Below, piece after piece: positions 1,961 to 36,817 of a stretch of 47,446 bases of DNA; within the stretch, counting starts at the first letter, position 1; every line of letters begins with the position of its first letter. The stretch is from positions 1 to 47,446 of the forward strand of contig JAQUHK010000004.1 of assembly GCA_028683655.1 (NCBI GenBank), written 5' to 3'. This stretch comes from Alphaproteobacteria bacterium (GTDB lineage: Bacteria; Pseudomonadota; Alphaproteobacteria; UBA9219). The notes below the pieces were generated by a model. It saw nothing but the letters and a program-made list of their open reading frames with translations. It searched no databases and was not told where the DNA came from. A program made the position numbers and the translations under genes.

Positions 1961-1963
1961 GCA

Positions 1964-2121: not shown

Positions 2122-2148
2122 TTTTTCTTCAACATACAGCGAGGAACA

Positions 2149-3413: not shown

Positions 3414-3462
3414 TTCTTGGCCGTATGCTTAAAAATAACAGTTAAACAAAGCAGGAACCAAA

Positions 3463-5321: not shown

Positions 5322-5328
5322 GGAATTG

Positions 5329-5430
5329 CGTCATCGCGAGCCAAGCTTGCTTGGCGTGGCGATCCAGTCCTTAGGCGTAAGGCTTGGGGACTGGATTGCT
5401 TCGTCGCGCTTTGCGCGCCTCGCAATGACG
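5329..5430. repeat. CGTCATTGCGAG-type palindromic repeat (family B)
   Basis: This is a long imperfect palindrome beginning CGTCATCGCGAG and ending CTCGCAATGACG, with inner arms GGCGATCCAGTCC and GGGGACTGGATTGC. Further copies lie at 13346-13444, 19122-19218 and 34987-35083, and a half copy at 309-349. It sits between the capsid gene and the next gene. Such GTCATTGCGAG palindromes are widespread in bacteria; their function is unknown. Confidence 0.9.
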
Positions 5431-5461
5431 ATAGGTTTGAAAAAAACAAGGAGAGAGAAAA

Positions 5462-5851: not shown

Positions 5852-5910
5852 GGGGATAGGTAATACCAACAAGCGCATGAAAGGCGACACGTAAGCTAAC
5901 CATGCCCTTC

Positions 5911-6047
5911 GTCACCCCGCACTTGATGCGGGGTCCAGACCAATGCTGCGCAGGAGGCCTAACGCTGGTTCCTTGTGAGCAAGATCGGCTGGATCCCGCA
6001 TCACGCAGCCCGCGCTTCGCGCTGGCTGCTGTGCGGGAAGACGAGGG
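5911..6047. repeat. GTCACCCCGC-type palindromic repeat (family C)
   Basis: This fills most of the 308-bp gap between two head genes. It begins GTCACCCCGCACTTGATGCGGGG (a 7-bp hairpin of CCCCGCA and TGCGGGG) and contains CTGGATCCCGCATCACGC, then ends GTGCGGGAAGACGAGGG. The outer arms pair imperfectly. It is the only copy in the window. I see no gene in the rest of the gap. Confidence 0.75.
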
Positions 6048-6159
6048 AGGGTGAGTTTTGTGCGCCGGTGCATAGGTGGGTTGGTATAAGGCGGACCTTC
6101 CCGTCCCTTGGGGCGGGGAGGTTTTGTTTGTTGGGGGTTTAGATCAAGGAAGGATTGGC

Positions 6160-6429
6160 ATGATTGATACGTATTTGAAATCGACAAATAGAGAAGCGTT
6201 GGAGGCTTTACGCGCTGGCGCGGTGAATGTGATCGGGCCGGTGCAGGGCTGTGCGGCAATGGAGGCCGTGACGCTTGAGGATGGTTCTGTGATTCCTGCG
6301 CAGGAAGCCAAAGGCGACCCCGCTTATTGGTATGTGTGCGTGCGGCTTGTGGTGCCTGTCGGTGTCTCGGAAGAGATCGAGGCTTGTGACGCGGCGGAGG
6401 GGCAGGCTGTTTGCGGCCTGTGGTTATGA
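6160..6429 (+). CDS. Hypothetical protein upstream of connector
   Basis: An 89-residue protein of unknown family. I start at ATG 6160 because AAGGAAGG lies 6 bp upstream. A longer in-frame start at 6076 has no such signal and would run through repeat-flanking sequence. Residues 1-30 look helical (NREALEALRAGAVNVIG), and the end contains a strand-rich WYVCVRLVVPVGV segment. The stop overlaps the connector start in ATGA at 6426-6429, so it is co-translated with head-tail joining genes. Confidence 0.7.
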   Translation: MIDTYLKSTNREALEALRAGAVNVIGPVQGCAAMEAVTLEDGSVIPAQEAKGDPAYWYVCVRLVVPVGVSEEIEACDAAEGQAVCGLWL

Positions 6430-7034
6430 GTATGGGGGTTTTATTTTCATCGAATGTTCTGACCGTGTCTGCGGCTGTTGAACCTGTCAGCGTGGAGGAG
6501 TTGAAGGCTCAGGCGCGGATTGCGGGCGAGGGCGAGGATGCGCTGCTCACGCGGCTGATTGAAGCGGCGCGGCAGTGGGCCGAGCGGTTTATGGGCCGCG
6601 TGCTGATCGAGCAAACGTGGGTGGCGGGTTTTTCATCCGTCCCGCGCGGGCGTTTTGTGACGCTGCCAAGTGGCCCTTTGCTGAGCGTCGAGCAGGTCGA
6701 AGCCTATGACGAGCGCGACAATGCGACGCTGTGGGCCACCAGCAATTACTATGTGGACGATCAGCGTGTGCCCGCGCGGCTTGTGCTGCGCGACGGAGCT
6801 TGCTGGCCCGACATGACGCGCTGTGCCAACGGGATGACGGTGACCTATAAGGCTGGATACGGCGCGGCGGCTAGCGATGTGCCAGAGCTGATCCGCACCG
6901 CGATTTTGCAACTGGCGACGCACTGGTTCGAGAATAGAGGCGAGGCCTCGGCGGTTGATGAGCGCGGCGTGATGGCCCCGCTGATGGTTCAAGCGTTGTT
7001 GCAACCTTATAAAATCCTGCGAGCGGGGGCGTGA
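6426..7034 (+). CDS. Phage/GTA head-tail connector (gp6-like)
   Basis: This protein would form the ring below the portal. At 202 residues it has the helical N terminus typical of the gp6/phiE125 gp8 connector family: SVEELKAQARIAGEGEDALLTRLIEAARQWAERFMGR at residues about 20-60. The pattern VTYKAGYG with PELIRTAILQLATHWFENRGE is at about 140-170. I choose ATG 6426, which overlaps the previous stop; ATG 6432 is also possible. It overlaps the next gene by TGATG at 7032-7036. Confidence 0.88.
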   Translation: MSMGVLFSSNVLTVSAAVEPVSVEELKAQARIAGEGEDALLTRLIEAARQWAERFMGRVLIEQTWVAGFSSVPRGRFVTLPSGPLLSVEQVEAYDERDNATLWATSNYYVDDQRVPARLVLRDGACWPDMTRCANGMTVTYKAGYGAAASDVPELIRTAILQLATHWFENRGEASAVDERGVMAPLMVQALLQPYKILRAGA

Positions 7035-7366
7035 TGAAGATCGGGTCGATGAATGTGCCGCTGTTGCTTCAGGCGCAGAGCCTTGTTGATGATGGCGAGG
7101 GCGGGCAGATCGCACAGTGGGCGACGCTGGCCGCCCTGTGGGGCAAGATCGAGCGCACCTTTGATGGCAGTAGCGTGACAGCGGATTAAAACCGCATCAC
7201 GCACAAGATCACGGTGCGGCGGCGTGAAGATGTCGCTTTCGCGCCTGCTCAACGGCTTTCCTATGAAGAGGCGGAGAAGTTTTACATGATCCATCGTGTC
7301 GAGCTAGACGCGAAGGACAAGGGGTATCTCGCGCTGGGCGTTGGGGAAGTCGGGTATGTGAATTGA
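7034..7366 (+). pseudogene. Head-tail adaptor (gp7-like), interrupted by in-frame TAA
   Basis: The frame starts at ATG 7034, overlapping the connector stop, and runs 110 codons to TGA 7364-7366, but has a TAA at 7187-7189 (codon 52). Upstream the reading is normal (QSLVDDGEGGQIAQWATL...LWGKIERTFDG). Downstream the same frame continues as a typical adaptor C terminus: ITHKITVRRREDVAFAP, then LSYEEAEKFYMIHRVELDAKDKGYLALG. A single substitution creating the stop (for example CAA or GAA to TAA) explains it. Either the gene is dead, or the stop is read through or is a sequencing error. Truncated, it would yield 51 residues. Confidence 0.82.
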
Positions 7367-7369
7367 AGA

Positions 7370-7526
7370 AGCATATAGCATTTGGCATGTGGCATTTAGG
7401 GCAGAACCCCCGCTCCAGCAAAATCTAAGACTTGCTGACGCAAGCCTAAGATTTTGCGTCCTCTCCCGCGAGGGGAGAGGAAAGGAGGGCCCTTCCCTAA
7501 ATGCAAAATGCCAGATGCTAAATGCT
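7370..7526. repeat. Heptamer inverted-repeat element, adaptor-DUF2460 junction (copy 4)
   Basis: Left arm 7370-7401, core A 7405-7482, right arm 7493-7526. It occupies exactly the place where GTAs carry the tail terminator, tail tube, chaperones and tape measure (gp8-gp11). Confidence 0.92.
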
Positions 7527-7551
7527 TTACAAAGATTGGGAAGAACCACAA

Positions 7552-8181
7552 ATGTCATTTGACGAAATCGTTTTCCCGTTGTCCTTGAGCGCAGGGACAA
7601 GCGGCGGGCCGTGCTTTGCCACTGAGGTGGTGACAATCGACGGCGGGTTTGAGCGGCGCAACCAGAAATGGGCGCAGCCGCGCAGGCGGTATAATGCGCA
7701 GGCGGGTGTTGTCACGATGCGCGAGGCGGCCTTGCTGACGGCGTTTTTTCAAGCGCGGGCGGGGCGGGCTCGCGGGTTCCGGTTGCGTGATGCAAGCGAT
7801 TGCACGAGTGCAGCCGATGGGCTTAGTGCGCCCGATTGGCGCGATCAGGAAATCGGCATAGGAGATGGTGTGACGACGCAGTTCCAGCTTGTCAAAACCT
7901 ATGGCAATGCTTCGGTGTCGTTTGCGCGAGAGATCAAGAAGCCCGTCGCCGGATCGGTGCGCGTCGGCGTGGATGATACGGAATACACAAGCGGGTGGAG
8001 CGTGGATGTCACAAGGGGGATCGTGTCCTTTGCGCAGGCTCCCGCAAGTGGCGTGGTCATCAAGGCGGGCTATCGGTTCGATGTGCCTGTGCGCTTTGAT
8101 ACCGATACGCTGGATTTGAGCTTTGTCGGACAAAGTCGCGCTCAAGGCAACGTTCCGCTGATCGAGGTGCGCACGCCATGA
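7552..8181 (+). CDS. Distal tail protein, DUF2460 family (GTA gp12-like)
   Basis: This is the distal tail ring protein that joins tail tube to baseplate hub. It has 209 residues. Family features are the N-terminal MSFDEIVFPLSLSAGTSGGPCFATEVV, the RNQKWAQPRRRYNAQ segment near residue 40, AFFQARAGRARGFRLRD near 65-80, and a C terminus with VRFDTDTLDLSF. I start at ATG 7552, after GGGAAGAA; the in-frame ATG at 7522 is in the repeat's right arm. It overlaps the next gene by ATGA at 8178-8181. Confidence 0.92.
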   Translation: MSFDEIVFPLSLSAGTSGGPCFATEVVTIDGGFERRNQKWAQPRRRYNAQAGVVTMREAALLTAFFQARAGRARGFRLRDASDCTSAADGLSAPDWRDQEIGIGDGVTTQFQLVKTYGNASVSFAREIKKPVAGSVRVGVDDTEYTSGWSVDVTRGIVSFAQAPASGVVIKAGYRFDVPVRFDTDTLDLSFVGQSRAQGNVPLIEVRTP

Positions 8182-9029
8182 AGACGATAGGAAGCGCTTT
8201 AGGCGCGCATTTGGCTGGCGAGCTGACGACGCTGGCGGAGCTTGTGGCGATCACGCGCAAGGATGGCGTGGTGGTTGCTTTTACGACGCATGATGCGGAT
8301 TTGCTCGTCGATGGCGTGAGCTATCGCGCTGATGGAAGCTATAGCGACGGGGAAAGCTTGGCGCAGAAAAGCGAGCTGAAAGCCGATGATTATGACGTGA
8401 CGGGCGTGCTGGACTCCGCGCTGATTGATGCGGGGGATGTCGAGGCTGGGCTTTACGATCATGCGCGGGTGGATGTGTATCTGTGCAACTGGGCCGATCC
8501 GCAGATGGGTAAGGTGCATTTGCGGCGCGGGTGGCTGGGCGAGATTGCGCAAAGCGGCGGGCAGTATAAGGCGAGCTTGCGCGGGATGCAGGATTTGCTG
8601 ACGCGCCCCATTGGGGCGACTTACACGCCCGCTTGTCGCCATGATTTTTGTGACGGCGCGTGCGGGATCGCTGCGGCCAGTGTGACGGTGAGCGGCTCTG
8701 TGAGCTTTGTGACGGACAGGCGCCGTTTCACGGACAACAGCCGAGAGGAAGGCGCGGGCATCTTCACCGATGGCATTTTGACATGGACGAGCGGCGCGAA
8801 TGCGGGCTTGGCTTTCGAGATTGCGGCGTGGGACAGCGCGGCCAAGGCGTTCAAGCTGTGGCTTCCCGCGCCGAAGGAAATCGCTGTCGGGGATAGCTTT
8901 ACGGCACGCGCAGGGTGCGACAAGCATTTTTCAACATGCCGGACGCGCTTCGGGAATGGTGCCAATTATGGCGGGTTTCCGTATCTGCCCGGTGTTGGGA
9001 AGTTGCTGGATTATCCAGAGGGGAATTGA
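8178..9029 (+). CDS. Baseplate hub protein, DUF2163 family (GTA gp13-like)
   Basis: A 283-residue protein of the DUF2163/BR0599 type, the hub of the GTA tail tip. It has ELTTLAELVAITRKDGVVVAFTTHD near the N terminus and GLYDHARVDVYLCNWADPQ mid-protein. The cysteine-bearing C-terminal region has ACRHDFCDGACGI (residues about 152-164), and CDKHFSTCRTRFGNGANYGGFPYLPG closes the domain; these cysteines are typical of the family and hub proteins of this type may bind an Fe-S cluster. It is coupled to the DUF2460 gene by overlap. It ends in TGA just before a heptamer element. Confidence 0.92.
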   Translation: MKTIGSALGAHLAGELTTLAELVAITRKDGVVVAFTTHDADLLVDGVSYRADGSYSDGESLAQKSELKADDYDVTGVLDSALIDAGDVEAGLYDHARVDVYLCNWADPQMGKVHLRRGWLGEIAQSGGQYKASLRGMQDLLTRPIGATYTPACRHDFCDGACGIAAASVTVSGSVSFVTDRRRFTDNSREEGAGIFTDGILTWTSGANAGLAFEIAAWDSAAKAFKLWLPAPKEIAVGDSFTARAGCDKHFSTCRTRFGNGANYGGFPYLPGVGKLLDYPEGN

Positions 9030-9034
9030 AGGGG

Positions 9035-9164
9035 AGCATTTGGCATTTGGCATTTGGCATTTAGGGGAGCGGGTAAAAACCAGTCACTCTCCCGCAAGGG
9101 GAGGATGCTTGATGAGGGAAAGGATGGCTCTTCCCCAAATGCTAAATGCCAAATGCCAAATGCT
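9035..9164. repeat. Heptamer inverted-repeat element, DUF2163-NlpC junction (copy 5)
   Basis: The left arm at 9035-9068 and right arm at 9131-9164 are nearly perfect reverse complements over 33-34 bp, differing at about two positions. It is the cleanest copy. The interior is about 60 bp and includes a remnant CTCTCCCGC-AAGGGGAG hairpin of core A. Confidence 0.93.
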
Positions 9165-9185
9165 TTTAAAAAGGGTGAACAATGA

Positions 9186-9611
9186 ATGACAGACAAAACA
9201 GAAACAATGATAGCCGCCGCGCGCGGGTGTTTGGGAACGCCGTTTCATCATCAGGGACGCGTGGCGGGCGTGGGGCTCGATTGCATCGGGCTTATCGTTC
9301 TGGCGATGCGGGCGGCTGGGTTGAGTGTCGAGGACCAAACGGACTACGCGCCGCGTCCCGATGGAGCCTCGCTGATCGCCGCACTGATCGCGCACGGGTG
9401 GAGGCCGACAGAGACGGGGGGGATCCATGGAGGTGATGTGCTTGTTTTTCGTTATGACCATCAGCCTCAGCATGTGGCGTTAGCCACCTCGCCCACCACG
9501 CTGATCCACAGCTTCGCCCCCGTGGGCAAGGTCGTGGAGACAGAGATTGGCGCGTATTGGATGAGAAGGTTGGTGGGGGTTTATCGGTTAGAAGGGAGCA
9601 TTTGGCATTAG
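9186..9611 (+). CDS. NlpC/P60 cell-wall peptidase (GTA gp14-like)
   Basis: A cysteine peptidase that opens peptidoglycan at the tail tip during DNA delivery. It has 141 residues. The catalytic Cys33 is in GLDCIGL and His96 in QHVALA, with His108 in LIHSF; the start is GCLGTPFHHQGR, typical of the GTA-type NlpC/P60. The last codons, AGC ATT TGG CAT TAG (coding S-I-W-H-stop), lie in the left arm of the next heptamer repeat, so the native C terminus was probably replaced. A GGGTGAAC stretch precedes the ATG; an ATG at 9182 is in another frame. Confidence 0.92.
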   Translation: MTDKTETMIAAARGCLGTPFHHQGRVAGVGLDCIGLIVLAMRAAGLSVEDQTDYAPRPDGASLIAALIAHGWRPTETGGIHGGDVLVFRYDHQPQHVALATSPTTLIHSFAPVGKVVETEIGAYWMRRLVGVYRLEGSIWH

Positions 9612-9808
9612 CCAAGAAAGCATTTGGCATATGGCATTTGGCATTTAGGGGGTCCCCCTCACCAAGAAAAACTAAGGCCTTGCTGGCGCAAGACCAAGTT
9701 TTTCTATCCTCTCCCGCGAGGGGAGAGGAAAATGGGAGGAGCTTGTGCGTTTTGTTGAGCAAAAACGTTCTTCCCTCCCCAAATGCTAAATGCGATATGC
9801 CAAATGCT
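9598..9808. repeat. Heptamer inverted-repeat element, NlpC-megatron junction (copy 6)
   Basis: The left arm (9598-9652) is doubled, with GCATTTGGCATTAGCC before a second run of units. The core is a diverged core A at 9652-9728 (ACTAAGGCCTTGC facing GCAAGACCAAG). An extra 45 bp follows, then the right arm at 9775-9808. The stop of the upstream gene lies in the left arm. Confidence 0.9.
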
Positions 9809-9825
9809 TATTAAAAGGAAACAAC

Positions 9826-12800
9826 ATGGCTTCAATCGTTTTTGCAAGTGTCGGCGCGTCGGTCGGCAACATGATTTTGCCCGGCCTTGGTGGGCGGCTT
9901 TTGGGAAGTTTTGCGCGGCAGGCGGGTAAGCTTGTCGATGCAGAGCTGGGCCTGACGACCTCCGCCAAGGATGGGGCGCGGCTTGAGAACTTCAAGGTTC
10001 AGGACTCGCGCTATGGCGTTACGTTGCCCGTGCTTTTTGGCTGTGTGCGCGTGGCGGGGAATGTGATCTGGGCTTCGGATTTGATCGAGACAGCGCATGA
10101 GACAAGCGTTAGTGGCGGCAAGGGCGGCGTGATGTCCAGCGCCCTTGGCGCGACGCGCACGACGTATACTTACAGTTTGCATTGCGCGGTCGCCATCGGG
10201 CTGGGCCCTGTTGGCGGGGTGCAACGTATCTGGGCCGATAGCAAGGTGATCTATGAAAACGGCGTGTGTGCTTCGGGCGTTGTCGGCTCGGCTTCGTTTC
10301 ATCTGGGCGAAGAGGCGCAAGCCGTCGATGCGTTTATGGAATCGTGCCTCGGCAGCGGGATGAGTCCGGCCTATCGCGGGGTGGCTTATGTCGTGCTGGA
10401 GTCGCTGCAACTCTCGAAGTTCGGGAACAGGCTGCCTAACCTGACGTTCGAGCTGTTGCCCGCGACGAGTACAGGGAGCCCGACGCTGACGGGGAGCCTT
10501 AATCCGGCTTTGTCGGTGCCCGTGGTGAGCAACAGGCAGGGCGGGATGGAGCCACTGGTTGCCGAAGGTGGTGATGTGGCGCGGCGCAAGGTTTATGTCG
10601 ACGGCTATCTGTTGTCGGGTGGGCTCGCGCAGTTTGTGGTGACGACTTATGACGTGACGAGCGAGACTCCCGTCGAGCTGCGCCGTGATGTGAGTGCGAC
10701 GTTTGTATGCGCAGGCGTTTATGAGCAGAGCTGGGTCGCAAGCCCTAGCGGGCGTTATGTGGTGATGGGGCTGCAAGACACAGGTGTGGGCTATCCTTAT
10801 CGCACGATGATCTATGACACCGTGACGCACAGTTTCGGCGCGGCGCAAAGCACGTCTATGACCGCGTTAGAGCTGCGCCAGATGGCGTGGCTGGATGCTT
10901 ATCGCGTGATCGTGACGGATCAGCGCAGCGGGGCGCGGGGCGTGCGCGTTTATCTGCGCTCTGGCTCCTCGCTGGTCGATCAGGGATTCTTTGATGTGTG
11001 GGGAAGCGGGACAGCGAGCACGCGCTTGCCGCTGGCTTACGCGCAGTTTCGCCCCTATGGCGACGGGCTGCTGACCTATGCGGGGGATGCGTCGCTGAAG
11101 TTCAGCAATTTGTATGCGCGGGTGATCGCGTGGAACGGCACGGGCCTGAGCGTTGGCGCAGCGGTGACGGTTTCGAGTGGATATAATCTTGGAACGGGAA
11201 GCTCGCCGCAGGTTCATTTGATCGAGACGGGGGAGGGTGAATGGACGCTGTGTTATATGACGGTGTCGGACATGCAGGTGTTGTCGTTTGTGCCAAGCGC
11301 AAGCGGCGTGACGATCACGCGCCCGTGGCAGAAGATCAAAAGCGCGAAGTTTGTTTTGTCCAACACGAATTATCCCGTCTTGTATGGGGATCGTCTGTGC
11401 GTTTTGCATCGCTCTTATACCGAGAGCCAGTATCGCCTCAGCGAAATTAAGCTGGAGGCGGGGGCGTTTACGCTTGTGACGGATGCGGCGGTGGTGGCGA
11501 ACAGCTCGCCGCCCGCCAGTAATTTCAGCGCCTATAGCGTGAGCGCAACGCGCCTTGCGGTGCTGGGCAATTCGGGATCGACCGCGACGCTGGCGCAGGC
11601 GGCTTTGGTCAAGCGGCGCAATACGGGCGACACGCTCGCGCGGATCGTGGCGGCGATTTTAGAGCGGGCAGGCTATGCGGACAGTGATTATGACGTGAGC
11701 GCGTTGGATGCGATTGAGGTTGATGGCTATGCGCTGTCTGACCAAACGACGGCGGCGCGGGCGATTGAGCCGTTGCAGAACTTTGCGCGGTTTGATTTGG
11801 TCGAGCAGGATGGGATGCTCCGCGCCGTTTTGCATGGGCAGGGCGACGAGGTCAGCGTGGCGGCAAGCGAGACGGGGGCGAGCCTTGCGCCGGAGAAAGG
11901 CGAGGATGGGCTTGTGCGGACTTCGCGGGCGCAGCAGCTGGATATGCCTTTGGAGGTGTGCGTCGATTATCTGGATGCCTCGCTGGATTACGAGACGGGC
12001 AGCCAGCGCGCGCGGCGTAGCGTGTCGGGCGGCGCACGAAGCGTGGAGAAGATCACGCTGCCACTGGTGTGCAGCGCGACGCGTGCGCGGCGCGTGGCGG
12101 AAAACCAGCTTTATGCCGCTTGGGTGCAGCGCGAGCGATACAGGCTTTATCTGTCGCTTGCCTTTGTGGGGCTTAATCCATCCGATGTGGTGGTTTATGA
12201 GGGCAAGAGGCTGCGCGTGCTGGCGGTGACGCGAAAGCGTGGGATCGTGCAGGTGGATGCTCTGTCCGCCGTGCCGTCTGATATGGTGAGCGAGGCGACG
12301 GCAGAAAGCACTTCGGCCTCAAGCGCAAGCGCGAACGTGGCGGTGAGCAGTGAGGCTTATTTGATGGACGTGCCTTTGCTGCGCGAGCAGGACGATCAGG
12401 CTGGGCTTTATGTTGCCGTGAGTGGCGCGGACGGTTGGCGCGGGGCAAGCCTGTGGCGGGCAGCGGACGGGGTGAGCTTCACGCGCCTGACAAGTTTTGC
12501 GCAAGCGGCGAGCGCAGGTGTGGCGACGACGGCCCTTGGTACGGCCTCGCCTTTTTATAAGGACAAGGCGCGAAGCGTGCGCGTGCAAATGCTGCGCGGC
12601 CAGCTTGCGAGCTGTACGGAGAGCGAGCTTTTGAACGGGGCGAATGTCGCGCTGTTGGGCGAGGAGCTGATCCAGTTTCAGGCCGCGACGTTGATCGAGG
12701 CGGGGCTTTATGAGCTGTCGGGCCTGTTGCGCGGGCGGCGCGGGACGGAAGACAAAACGGGATCGCATGTCGTGGGCGAGCGGTTTGTTTTACTTACCGC

Positions 12801-13269
12801 CACGGCGATGCAGTTTGTGCCGACACCGCTCAGCGATAGGGGCATGAGCTATCACTTCCGCGCGGTGAGTGACGGCGGCTCGCTTGATTTCGCGTTGGAC
12901 CGCACGCTGGCTTACGGGATGAAGACGCTGGAGCCTTATGCGCCTGTGCATATCAAGGGGGTGCGCAGCGCGGGGACGGGCAGCGATGTGATGCTGCGCT
13001 GGAAGCGGCGCGCGCGGATGAATGCCGCTTGGGTCGATTATATCGACGTGCCACTTGATGAGGCGCAGGAGCTTTATGACGTCGAGATCATGAACGGCGG
13101 CGCGGTCGTGCGCACGTTCAGTGATGTGGCGCAGGCGAGCGTTGTTTACACCGCCGCAATGCAAACGACGGATTGGGGCGCGAGTATTCCTTCGACCTAC
13201 ACGGTGCGCGTTTATCAAAAGAGCGCACGCTATGGGCGGGGGAAGAAGGGGGAAGGAAGTAGCATTTAG
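9826..13269 (+). CDS. Megatron / host-specificity tail-tip protein (GTA gp15-like), variant middle
   Basis: This 1147-residue protein would form the tail-tip fibre and cell-wall contact. The N terminus (GASVGNMILPGLGGRLLGSFARQ), YGVTLPVLFGCVRVAGNVIWASDL and TYTYSLHCAVAIGLGPV are characteristic of GTA gp15. The phage-tail domain with AAILERAGYADSDYDVSALD and LQNFARFDLVEQDGMLRAVLHG at about 620-680 is also typical, as is LYELSGLLRGRRGTE further on. Residues about 240-610 do not look like the TIM-barrel hydrolase of the model GTA. They are repeated beta strands with YDVTS and YDTVTHSFG motifs, as in a beta-propeller. Start is ATG 9826 after AAAAGGA. The gene ends S-I-stop on AGC ATT TAG of the next repeat. 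Confidence 0.88.
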   Translation: MASIVFASVGASVGNMILPGLGGRLLGSFARQAGKLVDAELGLTTSAKDGARLENFKVQDSRYGVTLPVLFGCVRVAGNVIWASDLIETAHETSVSGGKGGVMSSALGATRTTYTYSLHCAVAIGLGPVGGVQRIWADSKVIYENGVCASGVVGSASFHLGEEAQAVDAFMESCLGSGMSPAYRGVAYVVLESLQLSKFGNRLPNLTFELLPATSTGSPTLTGSLNPALSVPVVSNRQGGMEPLVAEGGDVARRKVYVDGYLLSGGLAQFVVTTYDVTSETPVELRRDVSATFVCAGVYEQSWVASPSGRYVVMGLQDTGVGYPYRTMIYDTVTHSFGAAQSTSMTALELRQMAWLDAYRVIVTDQRSGARGVRVYLRSGSSLVDQGFFDVWGSGTASTRLPLAYAQFRPYGDGLLTYAGDASLKFSNLYARVIAWNGTGLSVGAAVTVSSGYNLGTGSSPQVHLIETGEGEWTLCYMTVSDMQVLSFVPSASGVTITRPWQKIKSAKFVLSNTNYPVLYGDRLCVLHRSYTESQYRLSEIKLEAGAFTLVTDAAVVANSSPPASNFSAYSVSATRLAVLGNSGSTATLAQAALVKRRNTGDTLARIVAAILERAGYADSDYDVSALDAIEVDGYALSDQTTAARAIEPLQNFARFDLVEQDGMLRAVLHGQGDEVSVAASETGASLAPEKGEDGLVRTSRAQQLDMPLEVCVDYLDASLDYETGSQRARRSVSGGARSVEKITLPLVCSATRARRVAENQLYAAWVQRERYRLYLSLAFVGLNPSDVVVYEGKRLRVLAVTRKRGIVQVDALSAVPSDMVSEATAESTSASSASANVAVSSEAYLMDVPLLREQDDQAGLYVAVSGADGWRGASLWRAADGVSFTRLTSFAQAASAGVATTALGTASPFYKDKARSVRVQMLRGQLASCTESELLNGANVALLGEELIQFQAATLIEAGLYELSGLLRGRRGTEDKTGSHVVGERFVLLTATAMQFVPTPLSDRGMSYHFRAVSDGGSLDFALDRTLAYGMKTLEPYAPVHIKGVRSAGTGSDVMLRWKRRARMNAAWVDYIDVPLDEAQELYDVEIMNGGAVVRTFSDVAQASVVYTAAMQTTDWGASIPSTYTVRVYQKSARYGRGKKGEGSSI

Positions 13270-13522
13270 CATTTGGCATTTGGCATTTGGCATTTAGGGG
13301 GGTGGAGCTAAATCTGTGACTAAACTTTCAATGAAATACCCCACGGCGTCATTGCGAGGAGGCCTTGGCCGACGAAGCAATCCAGTCCCGTTGCTTGAAA
13401 CTTGGGGACTGGATCGCCGCGTCGCTGCGCTCCTTGCGATGACGGTATGAGGAGAAAATAAGCGTTTTGTTGAACCGAAACACTGTCCTTTCCCCAAATG
13501 CTAAATGCCATATGCCAAATGC
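13261..13522. repeat. Heptamer inverted-repeat element, megatron-DUF2793 junction (copy 7)
   Basis: The left arm at 13261-13302 has five units and the right arm is at 13490-13522. The interior holds a complete family B palindrome (13346-13444) instead of core A, so different repeats can occupy the same heptamer frame. Confidence 0.92.
13346..13444. repeat. Family B palindromic repeat nested in heptamer element
   Basis: It begins CGTCATTGCGAGGAGGCC and ends CTTGCGATGACG, with inner arms AGCAATCCAGTCC and GGGGACTGGATCGCC around a short loop. It is most like the copies at 19122-19218 and 34987-35083. Confidence 0.9.
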
Positions 13523-13542
13523 TTTTTAAACAAGGAGAACAC

Positions 13543-13887
13543 ATGACAATAAGTCCGAATCTATCTTTAGGGTATCTGGCCTCTTCGCAGGCGCAGAAGG
13601 AAGTGACTCATAACGAGGCGCTTAATGATCTTGATGCGCTGGTGCAGCTTTCGGTCGCAAGCCGCACACTGACAACGCCGCCCGCCACTCCGGCAGAGGG
13701 CGATAGCTATATCGTCGGCGCGGCGGCGACGGGCGCATGGGCGGGGCATGATCTCGCTGTGGCGGCTTACTATGGCAGCTGGGTGTTCAAAACGCCCAAG
13801 GCGGGTTGGCTCGCTTTCGTGCGCGGCGAGACGAAGTTTTACGTTTTCAACGGCTCAAGCTGGGCCGCTTTGGGAGGTTTTCTATGA
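13543..13887 (+). CDS. DUF2793 family GTA-associated protein
   Basis: A 114-residue protein of the DUF2793 type commonly found at the end of alphaproteobacterial GTA/prophage tail clusters. It shows LGYLASSQAQKEVTHNEALNDLDALVQLSV at residues 8-37, PPATPAEGDSYIVG and the aromatic C terminus with WLAFVRGETKFYVFNGSSW. These proteins are thought to be tail-fibre or adhesin-related; the molecular role is not established. I start at ATG 13543 after AAGGAG; the in-frame ATG at 13498 is in the repeat arm. The stop overlaps the next gene in ATGA. Confidence 0.85.
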   Translation: MTISPNLSLGYLASSQAQKEVTHNEALNDLDALVQLSVASRTLTTPPATPAEGDSYIVGAAATGAWAGHDLAVAAYYGSWVFKTPKAGWLAFVRGETKFYVFNGSSWAALGGFL

Positions 13888-14162
13888 AGCTTGAAGTGAA
13901 TGACGGGATCGTGCGCGGTTTGCCGCTTGCCATCCTCGTCACTTTTTTGGTGCAGGGCAGCACGCTGGTCTGGTGGGTGTCGGCCAAGGCGCGGGACGGT
14001 TATTTCCTTGAACAGCGCGTCACGACTCTTGAGCTGGCGCAGGGCAAGGCGAGTGATCTGCAAAGCCAGACGATGCAACGCCTCGCGCGTATCGAGGAAC
14101 GTCTTGTCGCGCAAGGCGGGGTGTTGGAGAGGATTGAGAGGAATGTAGGGGGAGGAAGATAG
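13884..14162 (+). CDS. Small membrane protein with coiled coil, possible spanin/holin accessory
   Basis: A 92-residue protein with one transmembrane segment (LPLAILVTFLVQGSTLVWWV, about residues 12-31) followed by a coiled coil (YFLEQRVTTLELAQGKASD through LARIEERLVAQGGVLERIERN). That layout, placed just before the lysozyme, fits an inner-membrane spanin-like or lysis accessory protein. No family is recognised. GGGAGG lies 7 bp before the ATG, which overlaps the DUF2793 stop. Its TAG stop is shared with the first base of the next heptamer repeat. Confidence 0.75.
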   Translation: MKLEVNDGIVRGLPLAILVTFLVQGSTLVWWVSAKARDGYFLEQRVTTLELAQGKASDLQSQTMQRLARIEERLVAQGGVLERIERNVGGGR

Positions 14163-14250
14163 CATTTGGCATTTGGCATATCGCATTTAGGGAAGAAGTG
14201 GATAAAAGCGATCTGCCTCCCTAAATGCAAAATGCCATATGCTATATGCT
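14161..14250. repeat. Heptamer inverted-repeat element, lysis-region junction (copy 8)
   Basis: Left arm 14161-14192, right arm 14217-14250, about 24-bp loop, no core. The AAGGAGG ribosome-binding site of the lysozyme starts 3 bp after the right arm. Confidence 0.9.
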
Positions 14251-14263
14251 TTAAGGAGGAACC

Positions 14264-14755
14264 ATGTTTGAAGAAATTGATACAAGCCTCGACCCAATCA
14301 TCGACCACTCCAAAGGCTGGCGGCGGATTGGTGAGCGTGGGCTTGCGCTGATTAAAGAGTTCGAGGGGCTGCGGCTTAAGGCTTACAAATGTCCGGCGGG
14401 CGTGTGGACGATTGGCTATGGCCATACGGGTGGCGTGCAGCCGGACTGGGTGATCACGCAAGAGGTGGCCGAGCGGTTCTTGCGCGAAGACCTTTTCCAT
14501 GCGGAGCGATCCGTCGGCGCCTATGCCTGCATCAAGCTGAATGACAACCAGTTCGCGGCTCTGGTGTCGTTTGCGTTCAATGTCGGCGTGAAGAATTTCG
14601 AGAGGTCGCAGCTTCTCATGCTGCTGAACCGTGGCTGGTACGATCAGGTGCCTGCCCAGCTGATGCGCTGGACCAAGGTGCATGGGGTGGAGATGCAAGG
14701 ACTTGTGCGGCGAAGGGCGGCTGAGGCGGGGTTGTGGGGAGATAGAAGCATTTAG
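14264..14755 (+). CDS. Lysozyme/endolysin, GH24 family
   Basis: A muramidase that degrades peptidoglycan to release particles. It has 163 residues, with the phage lysozyme catalytic triad in the E-8aa-C-5aa-T spacing seen in P1/P21-type endolysins: Glu34 in EFEGLRL, Cys43 in YKCPAG and Thr49 in WTIGYGHT. The domain continues with LNDNQFAALVSFAFNVG near residue 105. There is no signal peptide or SAR segment, so export depends on the holin. The preceding AAGGAGG is strong. The final S-I-stop is coded by the next repeat's AGC ATT TAG. Confidence 0.93.
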   Translation: MFEEIDTSLDPIIDHSKGWRRIGERGLALIKEFEGLRLKAYKCPAGVWTIGYGHTGGVQPDWVITQEVAERFLREDLFHAERSVGAYACIKLNDNQFAALVSFAFNVGVKNFERSQLLMLLNRGWYDQVPAQLMRWTKVHGVEMQGLVRRRAAEAGLWGDRSI

Positions 14756-14840
14756 CATTTTGCATTTGGCATATAGGGGAAGGTGTTGTGGAGAGGAAGG
14801 ACGGCTCCCTCCAAATGCTAAATGCCATATGCCAAATGCT
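14748..14840. repeat. Heptamer inverted-repeat element, lysozyme-holin junction (copy 9)
   Basis: The left arm at 14748-14779 supplies the lysozyme stop; the right arm is at 14806-14840. The loop is about 26 bp and holds no core. Confidence 0.9.
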
Positions 14841-14863
14841 TTTTTAACAGAAAGGAACAAACT

Positions 14864-28630: not shown

Positions 28631-29887
28631 CTACTTCACAAACAAGGCCGCCAGCTCCATATGCGTGGACCAAAGGAACTGGTCCACGGGCTGGATATTC
28701 TCGAGGCGATAGCCGCCCTCGACCAGAATCTTGGCATCGCGCACGAAGCTGGGGGGATCACAGCTGATGGCCACCACGGACGGGACGCTGCTTTTGGCAA
28801 GCTTCTCCGCTTGGGCCTTCGCCCCGCCGCGTGGGGGATCGAAGATGACGAGGTCATAGGTCGAGCATTCCTCAGCGGTGAATGGATTGGTCATGAGGTT
28901 ACGCAGACTGGTTTCCATCGTTTTGTGTTTTTGAATAGCCTTAGCCAAGGCCTTGATCGCGGGCCCGTCCAGATCGCAGAAATGAACCTTCTTGGCTTGC
29001 GTTAACGACAAACCGAAAAGCCCGAGGCCGCAAAAAAGGTCGAGCACTTTCCCCTCGCCCAGCGGCGCGGCCAACACAAAATCGACCAGAGCTTCCGCGC
29101 CGGCATCGGTGGCCTGAAGGAACGAAGCGGGCGGAAAGGCGAGGACGGTTTCGCCGAACTGGACGGCCAGTGGGGCGCGGTGCGAGACAGGCTCCACAGG
29201 GCTGCGATCCCACTTGCGCCACGACAGATGCGCAACGTCAAGCCGCTCGGCCAGCTCGGCCAGATTTTGCCGCGCATTCACATCCAGCTTGGGCCCGCCG
29301 ATCAGGGTGACATCCATTCCGCTTGGCAGGGCGGTGATCTGGATATCGCAGCTTTCCCCCTGTCCCAGCCAGTGGGGGAGGTAGGCCCGCAGCTTGTCGA
29401 TCAGGTCGGTGATTTCGGGCTTCATAACCTCGCACGAGCGCAGGTCAACAATCTCATGGCTGCGCCATGCGTTAAAGCCGAGGATCAGGCCAGCCTCGCC
29501 ATAATGCGCCGCGACCCGCGCCCGCCGCCGCGTCTGCGTCGCCGTGGTCACGGTGGGCATAAGATGCGGCGCGGCAAGCCCCTCGCGCTCGAACAGATAC
29601 ACAAGCTCGCTTCGTTTGAACGCCTCATAGGCCGAGTCGTTCATGTGCTGCAACCGGCACCCGCCGCATTGCGGATAGTGCGGGCAGGGTGGCTTCATTC
29701 GTTCACGGACGGGGACCAGCACCTCCACAAGCTCACCCCTTTTGACGGCATTGGTGCTGTCGGAAAGCTCGATGCGGACTTTCTCGCCTTTCAAAGCCCC
29801 CGAAACGAAGATCGTCGCCCCGTTTTCATGAGCGATTCCATCGCCTTGCGCGCCTAAATCATCAATTGTGATCTCAAGGGTAGCCAT
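28631..29887 (-). CDS. rlmD: 23S rRNA (uracil-C5) methyltransferase, RlmD/RumA family
   Basis: It methylates a uracil (U1939 in E. coli 23S rRNA). The 418-residue protein has an N-terminal TRAM domain (residues 1-60), an Fe-S cluster motif CPHYPQCGGC (Cys68, 74, 77), and a SAM domain with KVLDLFCGLGLFGLSLTQ and FDPPRGGAKAQ. The catalytic cysteine is in VVAISCDPPSFVRD. Family members in alphaproteobacteria vary in target, so the exact uracil is not certain. It is divergent from the SPOUT methyltransferase gene. Confidence 0.9.
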   Translation of the reverse strand: MATLEITIDDLGAQGDGIAHENGATIFVSGALKGEKVRIELSDSTNAVKRGELVEVLVPVRERMKPPCPHYPQCGGCRLQHMNDSAYEAFKRSELVYLFEREGLAAPHLMPTVTTATQTRRRARVAAHYGEAGLILGFNAWRSHEIVDLRSCEVMKPEITDLIDKLRAYLPHWLGQGESCDIQITALPSGMDVTLIGGPKLDVNARQNLAELAERLDVAHLSWRKWDRSPVEPVSHRAPLAVQFGETVLAFPPASFLQATDAGAEALVDFVLAAPLGEGKVLDLFCGLGLFGLSLTQAKKVHFCDLDGPAIKALAKAIQKHKTMETSLRNLMTNPFTAEECSTYDLVIFDPPRGGAKAQAEKLAKSSVPSVVAISCDPPSFVRDAKILVEGGYRLENIQPVDQFLWSTHMELAALFVK

Positions 29888-29948
29888 AAGATGCCCGTTT
29901 CCTTATAAAGAGCCTCGAATTGCAACGATAAAAGAAGGTTTAGGAGAG

Positions 29949-30434
29949 ATGCGAGGCTATTTCGCCATAGGCGTAGAAGGTATAAGCAAAAGTTTCAATC
30001 TTGGCAATCTGGTGCGCACGACGCATGCCTTCGGGGGCAGTTTTTTCTTCACGATCAATTCCGAGCTGGATTACCAGAATATCCGCGCCTCCGACACCTC
30101 GCACGCCGCGATCCATATGCCGTTTTATGCCTATGACAGCGTCGAAAACTTTTCGCTGCCCAACGATTGTTCGCTGGTTGGCGTTGAGCTGATGGACGAG
30201 GCCGTGGATCTGCCGCAATTCAAACACCCACTCCGCGCCGCCTATGTGCTGGGGCCGGAGAAGGGAAGCCTGTCCCCTCAGCTTGTTGCACGCTGTGATC
30301 ACATCGTGAAAATCCCGATGAAGTTCTGCGTCAATGTCGGCGTCGCCGGAGCCCTGTGCATCTATGACCGCATGATCGCCCTCGGCTCCTCCGCCGAACG
30401 CATCGCCCATCGCGGCGTTAAGGTGGCGCGGTAG
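29949..30434 (+). CDS. SPOUT RNA methyltransferase, TrmH/SpoU family
   Basis: A knot-fold 2'-O-methyltransferase of about 161 residues. The C-terminal SAM/knot motifs are AAYVLGPEKGSLSPQLVARCD and IVKIPMKFCVNVGVAGALCIYDR. The N-terminal motif 1 is KSFNLGNLVRTTHAFG with the conserved Asn-x-Gly-x-x-x-Arg. This is a single-domain form like TrmL; tRNA is the likely substrate but not shown. I start at ATG 29949 because AGGAGA lies 3 bp before it; an in-frame upstream ATG at 29868 would overlap rlmD. A GANTC array begins on the next base after its stop. Confidence 0.9.
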   Translation: MRGYFAIGVEGISKSFNLGNLVRTTHAFGGSFFFTINSELDYQNIRASDTSHAAIHMPFYAYDSVENFSLPNDCSLVGVELMDEAVDLPQFKHPLRAAYVLGPEKGSLSPQLVARCDHIVKIPMKFCVNVGVAGALCIYDRMIALGSSAERIAHRGVKVAR

Positions 30435-30466
30435 AATCGATTCGGGAATCGAGTCGATTCGAGTCG
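30435..30466. repeat. Tandem GANTC array, 6 sites in 32 bp
   Basis: Sites begin at 30435, 30440, 30447, 30452, 30457 and 30462 (GAATC, GATTC, GAATC, GAGTC, GATTC, GAGTC). They are mostly directly abutting pentamers. GANTC is the target of the alphaproteobacterial cell-cycle methylase CcrM. The array lies between convergent genes. Confidence 0.9.
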
Positions 30467-31339: not shown

Positions 31340-31440
31340 GGTGAGCCTCAAATGAAAGACCGGATTGGTCAAAGAAGCCTACTTGCATTTCGTAAAGATA
31401 AGGTAGCCATATTCGTCCCTCGATTCCAACTTATCCACAG

Positions 31441-31486
31441 ACTCGATTCGGCGAATCGGGGGAATCGGTGAGTCGTTTCGGATTCG
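31441..31486. repeat. GANTC cluster in divergent promoter region, 6 sites in 46 bp
   Basis: Sites begin at 31441, 31446, 31454, 31463, 31471 and 31482, with one more outlier at 31423. It lies between the starts of two divergent genes (31339 on - and 31593 on +), so it is placed to affect promoters. The spacing is looser than in the other two arrays. TTATCCACAG, a DnaA-box-like sequence, adjoins it at 31432-31441. Confidence 0.88.
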
Positions 31487-31592
31487 TCTGTGAATAACAA
31501 AGTGTGGGTCATCCTGTGGATATTTACGCTAGATGTTGCGTTATAAACCCCAAGGCGTATAGTAGCGTTAACGTCTCGTTAGGAAATGTCTC

Positions 31593-32525
31593 ATGCGCTC
31601 CACCAGTGAAAAATTCGTCGATCTTGCTTCTCCGCGTCGCCTTTGGGTTGTTGCTGCGATTAACGGCAATCTGGAAAGGCTGGCGACCCTTCATGACCAT
31701 CTGGCCCTGCGCTTTTCGATCCGCGATCGGCTGGTCTATACGGGGAACTATATCGGAACGGGTGCGTTCGACAATCACGCGGTGCTGGAGGAGCTTCTGG
31801 CTTTTCGCTCCGCGCTGCTCTCCAAGCCGGGCATGGAAATTCACGACATCGTGCACTTGCGCGGTCCCACCGAAGAGGCGTGGCAGCGTTTGCTGCGCTT
31901 GCAGTTCGCGCCGTCGGCCTCGATGGCGGTGGAGCGTTGCCTTCAGGCCGGAGCCGAAGCCTATCTGCGCCTTTATGGCGTCAGCGTGAATGACACCAAG
32001 TCGATTGCACGAGCGGGCAGTGTGGCGATCACGCGTTGGACCAACCAGCTCCGTGGCCTTCAACGTCAGGTGCCGGGTCATGAGCCGTTTGTATGTAGCC
32101 TGCGCCGCGCAGCGATCACCTTTGGCCAGCCCGATGGCCGTGGCCGCGTGTTGGTTGTGCCAGCGGGTTACGATTTCCGCCGCACGCTGGACGAGCAGGG
32201 CGACAATTTGTGGTTCCCGCGCACGTCCTTCCATGTGGATGTTGAGGAAACGCGCTATGCCCGTGTGATCCGTGGGGCTGATCCGATGCAGGCGGGTGTC
32301 AGCACCGACCGTCTGGCCGTGACGCTTGATGGCGGCTGTGGCCGTGGCGGGCCGCTCATGTGCGGTTGTTTTGACGGGGCGGGCAATTTGCTTGAACTCG
32401 TAACCGTTGGAGGCCGTGGCGCGGTTGAATCCTCGCGCTTTGAAAGCGTCGCCCGCAGTGCCTTGCCTGAATCCCGTGCCGCGAATGTGCAAGACATTCT
32501 GGCCCCCGCCGAACAATGGGTGTGA
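31593..32525 (+). CDS. Metallophosphoesterase-like protein with degenerate active site
   Basis: A 310-residue protein whose first 100 residues follow the PPP-type phosphatase pattern, but the metal-binding motifs are altered. The usual DIHG is AING (VVAAINGNLERL), the usual GDYIDRG is GNYIGTG (LVYTGNYIGTGAFDNHAVLEELL), and the usual GNHE is RGPTE (LRGPTEEAW). Length and spacing are kept, so it is likely a stable, catalytically inactive protein. The remaining 200 residues (ITFGQPDGRGRVLVVPAGYDFRRTL, then LDGGCGRGGPLMCGCFDGAGNL) are C-terminal phosphatase-like and appear intact. AGGAAA precedes the ATG. It overlaps anmK by 10 bp. Confidence 0.8.
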   Translation: MRSTSEKFVDLASPRRLWVVAAINGNLERLATLHDHLALRFSIRDRLVYTGNYIGTGAFDNHAVLEELLAFRSALLSKPGMEIHDIVHLRGPTEEAWQRLLRLQFAPSASMAVERCLQAGAEAYLRLYGVSVNDTKSIARAGSVAITRWTNQLRGLQRQVPGHEPFVCSLRRAAITFGQPDGRGRVLVVPAGYDFRRTLDEQGDNLWFPRTSFHVDVEETRYARVIRGADPMQAGVSTDRLAVTLDGGCGRGGPLMCGCFDGAGNLLELVTVGGRGAVESSRFESVARSALPESRAANVQDILAPAEQWV

Positions 32526-33618: not shown

Positions 33619-34860
33619 TCACTCCCGCTCGGCGAGGATTTGTTTTTCGGTGCTTAGAATTTGCTCGGTGATGGCTTTGACGCTGTGGCGTGGCCGTTTG
33701 CCTTTTTGCGTCAGAAGGACGAACTCGACATTCATCGGCTTGGCCGAGAACCGCTGGCTGCTGACGCGATAGCGTTTATAGCCACGCAGAAAGACCGAGC
33801 AATCCCCGCAAGCATGGTTTGCCGCCACAAGATCGCGCAGGGCGATCATCCCGTCGGTGCTATAGCTTGTGGCGATCCACGTGGCGGGCAAGGTGGTAAG
33901 CAGCGTGGCGTAGGCTTCGCTGGCTTCCCGCACATAATTATACGCGCTGCGCCTTTGCGTGCGCCAGTCGGTGCGGATGGCGGCCTTGTTCCCGCGCCCC
34001 TCGATCTTGTGCGAGAGAGCCGGTTTGTCCCACAGCGTTACGCTGTTAAGAACATGATAGTTCGCGCCATAGGGATGCTGGTTGTAAGGTGGGTCCAGAT
34101 AAGCGAAGACCGGCCCCTCGACCGTTTCCTTCAGGTTCGCCGCCATTTCCTGTGCATCTTGCCGGAAGACGTGGCTTTGTTTGCCGTTGCAGATAAAGCT
34201 GGCGGGCCGCAATTCAAGATCGCCCATGATCCGGTAAAGTGCCGTTCCTGTCTGCCCGCCCCAACCATTATGAAAGCCTTTGAACACACCGCTCGTGTTA
34301 CTGGTGTAGCAGCACTGGTAGAGCAGTGGTGCCAAAAGTGCAGCGCGCTGGTGCGGATCAAGCAGCCCTTTCGTTTCCCAAAGCGCAATCTGCTCACGGA
34401 TCGCGTCGATCCGCATGCCGTTTTTGCGCATGTAGAACAGGCGGTCTTTGTCGGGATTGATCTGCTCGTCATCATCGGGGCACAGATGCTCCGTGACCCA
34501 TCCGGCCACAGGGGGCAAGGCGTTGAGTTCGTCAAGAACCGCCTGATAGCTTTGCTCCCCGTCAAATACAGGTGGCGTCTCAATCTCCAGATAGCAGCGG
34601 TTGATTGCCTCGCTATATGGCTCCCAGTCGTTGGTGACGACGGCATAGCCCAGCGAGCGGGCATAGCGGCTGACCACCCCCGTTCCGGCAAACAGGTCAA
34701 GGAAAGTCGTCGCCTCTGGTGTGATTTGGGCCGCTTGTATCGCCTCATACACAAGGCCAAGCAATTTCCTTTTGTTCCCGATATAGGGAATCAGCTGGTG
34801 GAAGACATATTCCTCCGTGAAGTGCGCGGAGTGCGCCGTTCTGTCCCAAGCCGTGACCAA
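33619..34860 (-). CDS. DNA adenine methyltransferase, D12 class, orphan
   Basis: It transfers a methyl group to adenine N6 in DNA. Family motifs: LIPYIGNKRKLLGLV near the start, FLDLFAGTGVVSRYA (SAM site), and FAYLDPPYNQHPYGANYHVLNSV (motif IV, DPPY). It has about 413 residues. No restriction endonuclease is adjacent, so it is an orphan; its specificity cannot be read from sequence. It is not CcrM, which belongs to another class with a different domain order. The start is unclear: only TTG 34860 gives the full frame, with ATG 34873 in another frame. It runs convergent with anmK. Confidence 0.85.
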   Translation of the reverse strand: MVTAWDRTAHSAHFTEEYVFHQLIPYIGNKRKLLGLVYEAIQAAQITPEATTFLDLFAGTGVVSRYARSLGYAVVTNDWEPYSEAINRCYLEIETPPVFDGEQSYQAVLDELNALPPVAGWVTEHLCPDDDEQINPDKDRLFYMRKNGMRIDAIREQIALWETKGLLDPHQRAALLAPLLYQCCYTSNTSGVFKGFHNGWGGQTGTALYRIMGDLELRPASFICNGKQSHVFRQDAQEMAANLKETVEGPVFAYLDPPYNQHPYGANYHVLNSVTLWDKPALSHKIEGRGNKAAIRTDWRTQRRSAYNYVREASEAYATLLTTLPATWIATSYSTDGMIALRDLVAANHACGDCSVFLRGYKRYRVSSQRFSAKPMNVEFVLLTQKGKRPRHSVKAITEQILSTEKQILAERE

Positions 34861-35133: not shown

Positions 35134-35193
35134 GATTCGAGTCACGACTCGAATCGCGACTCGATTCTGGACTCGATTCCCGAATCGCGAGTC
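35134..35193. repeat. Tandem GANTC array, 10 sites in 60 bp with 12-bp period
   Basis: Sites begin at 35134, 35139, 35146, 35151, 35158, 35163, 35170, 35175, 35182 and 35189. Successive spacings are 5,7,5,7,5,7,5,7,7, so the unit is GANTCGANTC plus two bases. The central base varies (T, G, C, A). All ten are CcrM-type sites. The array lies 14 bp past the dnaB stop, near the orphan adenine methylase. Confidence 0.93.
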
Positions 35194-35207: not shown

Positions 35208-36710
35208 TTACGCCTCAATGGCGTTGAACTGGCGTTCAAGGTTGCTAAAGCGCGTGAACTGGCCGTCGAAGTGCAGGGGCACGGTACCGATGGGGCCGTG
35301 GCGTTGTTTGGCGATCAGGACTTCGGCGACGTTGCGCACTTCCTCGCCGCGTTCCATCCAGTGCTGGTAGCGCTGGTTGAACTTGTCCTCGCCTTCGTCT
35401 GCGCGGCGGGTCGGCTCGCTGCGGGCGTGATAGTATTCCTCGCGGTAAACGAACATGACCACGTCGGCATCTTGTTCGATAGATCCCGATTCGCGCAAGT
35501 CGGAGAGCTGCGGATGCTTGTCCTCGCGCGATTCAACGGCACGTGACAACTGGGACAGGGCGACGACGGGAAGCTCAAGCTCCTTGGCAAGGCCTTTAAG
35601 GCCGCGTGTGATTTCCGAGACTTCCTGTACGCGGTTATCGCCATTCTTGCTGGAGCCGTGAAGGAGTTGCAAATAGTCGATGACGACCATCCCCAGTGTC
35701 GGGACAAGCCGTTTCAGCCGTCGCGCCCGCGTGCGCAGCGAGGCGACCGACAGACCGGGCGTGTCGTCGATGTAAAGTGGCGCGCGCGAGAGTAACTTGC
35801 TGGCTTCAACGAACTTGGTGAAGTCTTCCTGCTTAATCTCGCCGCGCCGGATCTTGTCGGAGGGAACGCTGGAATAATCACCTAGCAGACGGGTGGAGAG
35901 CTGTTCGCTCGACATTTCAAGCGAGAAGAACGCGACGGCGGAGCCTTCCTTGCCTGTTGTTTCGGCAAAGGCTTTGGCGGCGTTCATCGCGATATTGGTG
36001 GCCAAAGCGGTTTTACCCATGGAAGGGCGTCCCGCCAGAATGATGAGGTCCGATTTCTGGAAACCACCCAGCTTGCGGTCAAGATCGCGCAGGCCCGTGG
36101 TCACGCCTGTCACATGGCTGTCGCGCTTGAACGCTTCATCCGCCATTTTCAGCGAGTAGGTCAGCGACTTGTCGAGGCGGATAAAGCCCCTGTCAATCTC
36201 GCCCGTTTGCGCCAGCTCGAACAGGCAATGTTCGGCGCGTTCAATTTGCTTGGGCGCAGGGTTTTCAAGATTTTGCTGATAGGCATCGTTGACGATGTCT
36301 TCGCCAAGCCCAATCAACTGGCGGCGCAGGTGCAGATCGTGGATCAGCTGCGCGTAATCATGCGCGTTGATGACCGTGATGACATTGGACGCAAGATCCG
36401 CCAAATACTGCGCCCCGCCGACATGGGACAAAGCGGGATCGTCTTGAAACAACCCGCGCAGCGTCTTGGGATCGGCAATCTGGCCGCGCTGGACCAGCGT
36501 ATTGATCGCTTCATAGATGCGTTGGTGGACGGGATCATAGAAATGGTCCGGCTCAAGCAGGTCGCCGACCTTCTCAAAGATATTGTTGTTGACCAGAACC
36601 GCGCCAAGCAAAGCTTGCTCAGCTTCGATGTTATGCGGCAAAACGCGAGGCTGGACCAAGTCGGTCGATACAGTGCGAAGGGCAGGGAGGTTTTGGGCGG
36701 CGTTGGTCAT
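35208..36710 (-). CDS. dnaB: Replicative DNA helicase
   Basis: The hexameric helicase that unwinds DNA at the replication fork. At 500 residues it is the usual length. The N-terminal domain has PHNIEAEQALLGAVLVNN, and the RecA-like domain has Walker A ILAGRPSMGKTALATNIA. Further motifs are FFSLEMSSEQLSTRLL, MVVIDYLQLLHG and LSDLRESGSIEQDADVVMFVYREEYY. GAAAGAAG precedes the ATG. The stop is followed closely by the GANTC array. No intein is present. Confidence 0.97.
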   Translation of the reverse strand: MTNAAQNLPALRTVSTDLVQPRVLPHNIEAEQALLGAVLVNNNIFEKVGDLLEPDHFYDPVHQRIYEAINTLVQRGQIADPKTLRGLFQDDPALSHVGGAQYLADLASNVITVINAHDYAQLIHDLHLRRQLIGLGEDIVNDAYQQNLENPAPKQIERAEHCLFELAQTGEIDRGFIRLDKSLTYSLKMADEAFKRDSHVTGVTTGLRDLDRKLGGFQKSDLIILAGRPSMGKTALATNIAMNAAKAFAETTGKEGSAVAFFSLEMSSEQLSTRLLGDYSSVPSDKIRRGEIKQEDFTKFVEASKLLSRAPLYIDDTPGLSVASLRTRARRLKRLVPTLGMVVIDYLQLLHGSSKNGDNRVQEVSEITRGLKGLAKELELPVVALSQLSRAVESREDKHPQLSDLRESGSIEQDADVVMFVYREEYYHARSEPTRRADEGEDKFNQRYQHWMERGEEVRNVAEVLIAKQRHGPIGTVPLHFDGQFTRFSNLERQFNAIEA

Positions 36711-36817
36711 GACTTCTTTCTACCAACCCGCCAGCCAATTCTAAACAGAAAACCTCTGTGGATAAAATGCCTGTGAATAACGGGGGTAATTCGTCTTAGA
36801 CAGTGATATATTTTTGA

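Follow-up and report, generated by a model that had tools for sequence, protein, structure and literature searches.

GcrA is a methylation-dependent cofactor of sigma70, and the reading of CcrM methylation is known mainly from single GANTC sites or small groups of them. In Escherichia coli, a cluster of GATC sites at oriC is read by SeqA. GcrA binds methylated GANTC and, at ctrA P1 of Caulobacter, covers ~12 nt of hemimethylated and >40 nt of fully methylated DNA (PMC3667746). By analogy, this coverage makes a multi-site patch plausible, without being proof for the arrays described here. The mipZ promoter contains two juxtaposed GANTC sites (PMC3667746). The motif of GcrA-activated promoters in Caulobacter is YGAKTCG, and the GcrA of B. 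subvibrioides shows no extended-motif preference (PMC7987155).

Here we analysed a stretch of 47,446 nt (the window) from an alphaproteobacterial draft assembly of 2,275,951 bases in 207 contigs. The window contains three dense GANTC arrays, one of them past the end of dnaB.

GANTC array at the 3' end of dnaB

The dnaB gene (35208-36710, minus strand) encodes a replicative DNA helicase with DnaB_C and DnaB N-terminal matches of 350 and 108 bits. Array 3 (35134-35193) begins 15 bp past the dnaB stop codon and consists of ten GANTC sites starting at 35134, 35139, 35146, 35151, 35158, 35163, 35170, 35175, 35182 and 35189. The site-to-site spacing of 5,7,5,7,5,7,5,7,7 bp, the count of ten in 60 bp and the position at the end of dnaB agree with the preliminary description of this locus. 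The window as a whole is depleted in GANTC, with 82 sites compared with 185 ± 13 in dinucleotide shuffles. Outside the arrays, the density is 1.27 per kb in coding and 1.26 per kb in intergenic DNA of the window, by a hand-made gene list. A simple Poisson estimate that ignores duplication gives ~1e-9 expected clusters of ten sites in 60 bp per 2.28 Mb at 2.42 GANTC per kb, a background taken from 259 kb of fetched stretches of the same genome, partly picked around DnaA boxes.

TRF describes array 3 as a 12-bp unit in 4.6 copies with 79% matches; the middle base and the linkers vary and GA..TC does not. The middle base reads TGCACTCTAG in the dnaB array of the window's genome (G000) and ATTAGGAGT in that of the sister species (G003). 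All four bases are present at this position of the arrays, the linkers differ and GA..TC is intact. The preliminary description took the constant frame around a variable base as a sign that the methylation site itself is selected. The observation stands, but the argument is weaker within one array than was stated, because some of the units can be read as inverted copies of others. Stronger evidence comes from comparing the sister species.

Distribution of GANTC arrays

The genome-wide scan for dense GANTC that the preliminary description had proposed showed only three dense arrays in 2.28 Mb, all within the window and within 5 kb of one another on one contig (C38). Together they hold 23 of the 82 GANTC sites of the window (6 + 7 + 10). 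The two further arrays (30434-30465 and 31440-31485) had been missed in that description. Array 1 (30434-30465) has six sites, starts from the stop codon of a SpoU-family RNA methylase gene (29868-30434, plus strand) and lies between convergent genes. Array 2 (31422-31485) has a lone site at 31422 followed by six sites at 31440-31485, and is located between DnaA boxes upstream of a gene for a 310-aa protein. In G003, and apparently also in G001 and G002, the 310-aa gene has the SpoU gene as its syntenic upstream neighbour. The assembly has 24 places where three GANTC follow one another with gaps no larger than 7 bp, of which 16 are overlapping matches inside the three arrays; the remaining eight are isolated triplets, and none elsewhere in the assembly reaches four sites.

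Four-site GANTC clusters were found in 2 of 24 family genomes, only in G000 and G003. Across the class, a doublet-gap-doublet cluster is present in 4 of 385 sampled genomes, including that of the window. Judged by eye, two of the three other matches look coding (L269 and L271) and one looks intergenic (L270). The last is a five-site cluster in the distant alphaproteobacterium G364 (C9:277239-277259), apparently located between convergent gene ends.

Comparison with the sister species

Of the genomes compared, G003 is the closest (DnaB 91% identical). Past its dnaB, nine GANTC sites lie within 57 bp (L148:9377-9433), between dnaB and a convergent glycosyltransferase gene. At the position that corresponds to array 2, flanked by the SpoU gene and the 310-aa orthologue, G003 has an eight-site array (L149:9495-9557), which is followed by a DnaA box, two more GANTC sites (to about 9593) and further DnaA boxes. 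In the same genome, five GANTC sites and a DnaA box are located upstream of a ybjN-family gene (L150:7935-7984).

Gapless comparison of four-fold degenerate sites between G000 and G003 showed 40% identity in dnaB and 36% in the 310-aa gene, which is near saturation. Therefore, unconstrained DNA would not keep nine GANTC sites, indicating either selection or regeneration of the array. Regeneration by duplication should leave the units alike; the actual middle bases and linkers vary. This comparison is based on one draft genome and one close sister. Other members of the genus have 0-1 GANTC after dnaB (G005, G004 and G002), and their 310-aa genes have 1-2 within 300 bp. The dnaB array is thus dispensable, since it is present in only two of the family genomes searched.

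CcrM, GcrA and the neighbouring methylase

A genome lacking CcrM would have refuted the preliminary description; both CcrM and GcrA are encoded in this one. The CcrM candidate is a 386-aa ORF (L130) on contig C51 with matches to N6_N4_Mtase (225 bits) and RAMA (55 bits). It scores 597 bits against the CcrM model NF050803, below the curated cut-off of 830 for that model, and has close homologues in most relatives searched. GcrA (PF07750, 142 bits) is encoded on contig C44 (L236:3977-4558). Two DnaA boxes lie between gcrA and divergent genes including a gyrB-type gene (L236:3587-3977), as if gcrA were under the control of DnaA. In the same-genus genomes G005 (C34:113709-117049) and G004 (C47:417-3939), ccrM adjoins dnaB at a distance of ~0.7-0.9 kb. 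The two genes are on different contigs in the window's genome.

The orphan adenine methylase noticed earlier near the array is a D12-class DNA adenine methyltransferase gene (33619-34860, minus strand), which is not the GANTC methylase. Its presence was confirmed, but a link to the array is unsupported because the neighbour is not conserved: the G003 array sits between dnaB and the convergent glycosyltransferase gene.

Array 2 and the 310-aa gene

Array 2 is set in a divergent intergenic region with DnaA boxes and a promoter-like element. One DnaA box, TTATCCACA (31431-31439, plus strand), lies between the first and second GANTC sites of the array, and another, TTATTCACA (31489-31497, minus strand), lies just downstream of it. 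A box-like TGTG(A/G)ATAAC is kept at the position of the latter in G003, G002, G001 and G005. A candidate promoter of the 310-aa gene, TTGCGT-N16-TATAGT, was read by eye at 31536-31563 (plus strand); its first hexamer is kept as TTGCG(T/C) in four relatives.

The gene itself (31593-32525, plus strand) encodes a phosphatase-like protein for which Pfam gave no match at E 0.001. Structure prediction (mean pLDDT 85) gave a calcineurin-like (PPP-like) fold that resembles lambda Ser/Thr phosphatase and further PPP phosphatases of the PDB, with a Foldseek E-value of 1.5e-9 and moderate TM-scores of 0.38-0.50 on the query. In the alignment, judged by eye, the metal-binding signatures look incomplete.

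In each of the 19 family genomes examined, the 150 bp preceding the 310-aa gene contain GANTC. When G000 and G003 are left aside, 41 sites are observed in this region compared with 9.1 expected from the density of the whole locus, an excess that is expected in part because intergenic GANTC is generally over-represented in species with CcrM (PMC3973325). Such conservation of promoter GANTC holds for array 2 and the 310-aa gene and not for dnaB, whose array is found only in G000 and G003. Upstream of dnaB, two DnaA boxes (36757-36765 and 36772-36780, minus strand) are present here; many family genomes also have boxes there, which suggests that DnaA controls dnaB.

Sequence context of the array sites

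The Caulobacter motif YGAKTCG is found at 13 of 23 array sites compared with 60 of 604 background sites (10%) in G000 (Fisher, p 1e-7), and at 14 of 24 compared with 28 of 208 (13.5%) in G003 (p 3e-6), with p-values that are optimistic because the array sites are tandem or inverted copies and not independent. The doublets GANTCGANTC by themselves generate part of this context. Free flanking bases, which belong to no other site, are C in 17 of 28 cases compared with 25% in G000 (p 1e-4) and in 13 of 32 cases in G003, where the enrichment is marginal (p 0.05); these values are too small for the same reason.

Possible explanations of the arrays

The explanation that we favour, and consider about equally likely to be right or wrong, is that the arrays are multiplied CcrM target sites kept by selection on GANTC, which form multivalent patches for a methylation reader, most likely GcrA. 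The persistence of the arrays at the same place in the sister species and the avoidance of GANTC elsewhere suggest a selected docking patch for methylation-reading cell-cycle proteins. The earlier proposal of a selected on/off patch of CcrM methylation is partly supported, by the encoded CcrM and GcrA, the depleted background, the persistence in the sister and the fit to the extended GcrA motif.

The most serious alternative is a neutral minisatellite, in which a GANTC-bearing unit of 10-12 bp was duplicated in tandem or inverted orientation and has no function. We regard this as doubtful. The TRF call and the possible inverted copies among the units are what such a process would leave, the sister arrays could be independent expansions, and the genome also has a pentamer microsatellite, (CTAAG)n, on contig C198. 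However, the middle base of (CTAAG)n is constant, in contrast to the four middle bases and the differing linkers of the arrays. Moreover, two species with nearly saturated synonymous sites share arrays at two same places. The other 15 palindromic pentamers have no comparable array in 259 kb of this genome, where their clusters are GC-rich or chance runs of 4-5 sites. The control pattern CTNAG (GANTC reversed) is over-represented in G000 owing to the one perfect (CTAAG)n microsatellite. A dispersed repeat family (REP- or MITE-like) was rejected, as pattern searches gave only the three arrays on C38; the ordinary repeat family that the preliminary description had weighed against its own reading does not account for the arrays.

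It is quite unlikely that the GANTC patch serves a different reader, such as MucR shielding it from CcrM, CcrM itself being loaded or titrated, or a SeqA-like protein. We know of no SeqA-like reader of GANTC. The density of the sites would suit an avidity-based reader of any kind, and in Caulobacter MucR keeps clustered GANTC hypomethylated, one such promoter having four sites (PMC5172544). However, the context of the array sites matches the motif reported for GcrA.

An RNA element, in which the palindromic sites fold into hairpins at gene 3' ends and thereby terminate transcription or shield the mRNA, appears very unlikely. The dnaB and SpoU arrays fold with z ~ -3.3 compared with dinucleotide shuffles, the arrays outside promoters (dnaB and SpoU in G000, dnaB in G003) are at gene 3' ends, and the five-site array of G364 is apparently between convergent genes. 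However, when the middle bases and linkers are shuffled and the frame is kept, 66%, 81%, 62% and 45% of the shuffles fold as well as the dnaB arrays, and array 2 is in a promoter region. An intrinsic terminator is disfavoured, since the terminator scan gave no terminator-like site at the arrays and the dnaB hairpin is no stronger than with shuffled middle bases and linkers.

The hemE side is the kind of place where the oriC of Caulobacter lies. A replication origin or DnaA-controlled replication locus, with GANTC in the role that GATC plays with SeqA at the oriC of E. coli, was suspected from the DnaA boxes around array 2 but is hardly tenable. It was dropped because the most likely oriC lies on another contig (C75), where DnaA boxes, each with a single GANTC within 100 bp, are also found between the Kinase-PPPase gene (ppsR) and hemE, and because the window has no GC-skew switch. 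G003 also has dnaB and the 310-aa gene on separate contigs. In G016, a local GC-skew minimum coincides with the 310-aa gene, but it is one of several minima on contig C1 and did not decide the matter.

Inverted heptamer arrays elsewhere

Repeats of another kind were also observed. The region 185-14850 of the window is a gene-transfer-agent (GTA) cluster with genes for terminase, portal, prohead protease, capsid, DUF2460, gp84-like, NlpC/P60 and Rcc01698-like tail proteins. Most of its gene junctions carry four copies of GCATTT(A/G), a loop and four inverted copies of AAATGC(T/C), mostly with a T run, and four folded examples gave RNA z-scores of -5.9 to -8.5. These junction arrays resemble terminators. 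In the GTA cluster of Caulobacter, a repeat-borne terminator is bypassed by GafZ anti-termination (PMC11150451). Most clusters in the same-genus genomes G001 and G004 are likewise heptamer repeats; similar inverted arrays of GATTCAG/GATTCGG lie between ABC-transporter genes (L154:1406-1452 and 1849-1874; L155:4032-4071 and 4445-4478). They suggest that the genus has a common heptamer hairpin element with a unit that varies between loci.

Proposed mechanism and comparison with known systems

If the arrays are selected CcrM sites read by GcrA, CcrM would fully methylate the patch late in the cell cycle, and passage of the replication fork would render all of its sites hemimethylated in one step. 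Across the 30-60 bp, occupancy by GcrA or a competitor would then change in concert and not site by site. Array 2, next to DnaA boxes and the conserved promoter-like element, probably times the expression of the 310-aa gene. For the array past dnaB, guesses at the output are a local reservoir of GcrA and RNA polymerase or the control of antisense or read-through transcription. The G003 dnaB array lies between convergent genes, where the action of a sigma70 cofactor would be unusual, and this counts against the GcrA reading.

A more specific form of the same idea, which we consider unlikely, is that the arrays are dedicated methylation-state platforms, in which several to ten CcrM sites flip together at the fork and collect or release a GANTC reader by avidity. 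If true, CcrM would have its own version of the GATC/SeqA principle, sited next to dnaB and to a locus with DnaA boxes and not at oriC. The arrays may point to a multivalent reader of GANTC methylation. Packed at the same two loci in two species, in a genome that otherwise avoids GANTC, they would be natural high-gain targets for testing whether the timing of alphaproteobacterial cell-cycle genes depends on the number of sites and on hemimethylation.

The arrays resemble the MucR-shielded hypomethylated clusters in that GANTC is clustered at regulated intergenic sites, whereas the shielded examples compared here have at most four sites (PMC5172544). The GANTC-rich origins of repABC plasmids and chromids and the repE promoters are a further case of CcrM sites concentrated at replication-related loci (PMC6090056). 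Unlike these, the arrays are on a chromosomal contig with no repABC genes seen near them and with the oriC candidate elsewhere. What the arrays share with E. coli oriC is a dense set of methylation sites, all of which would become hemimethylated when a fork passes; the motif and the methylase are different and the arrays are not at oriC. The arrays also resemble the GcrA/CcrM promoters of Caulobacter (mipZ, ctrA P1 and podJ), where GANTC is near the promoters of cell-cycle genes; CcrM and GcrA are encoded here and the arrays fit YGAKTCG (PMC7987155). However, the array at dnaB follows its gene and is not in a promoter as in Caulobacter. The arrays have ten, nine or eight sites in ~60 bp, compared with one to four at the Caulobacter promoters.
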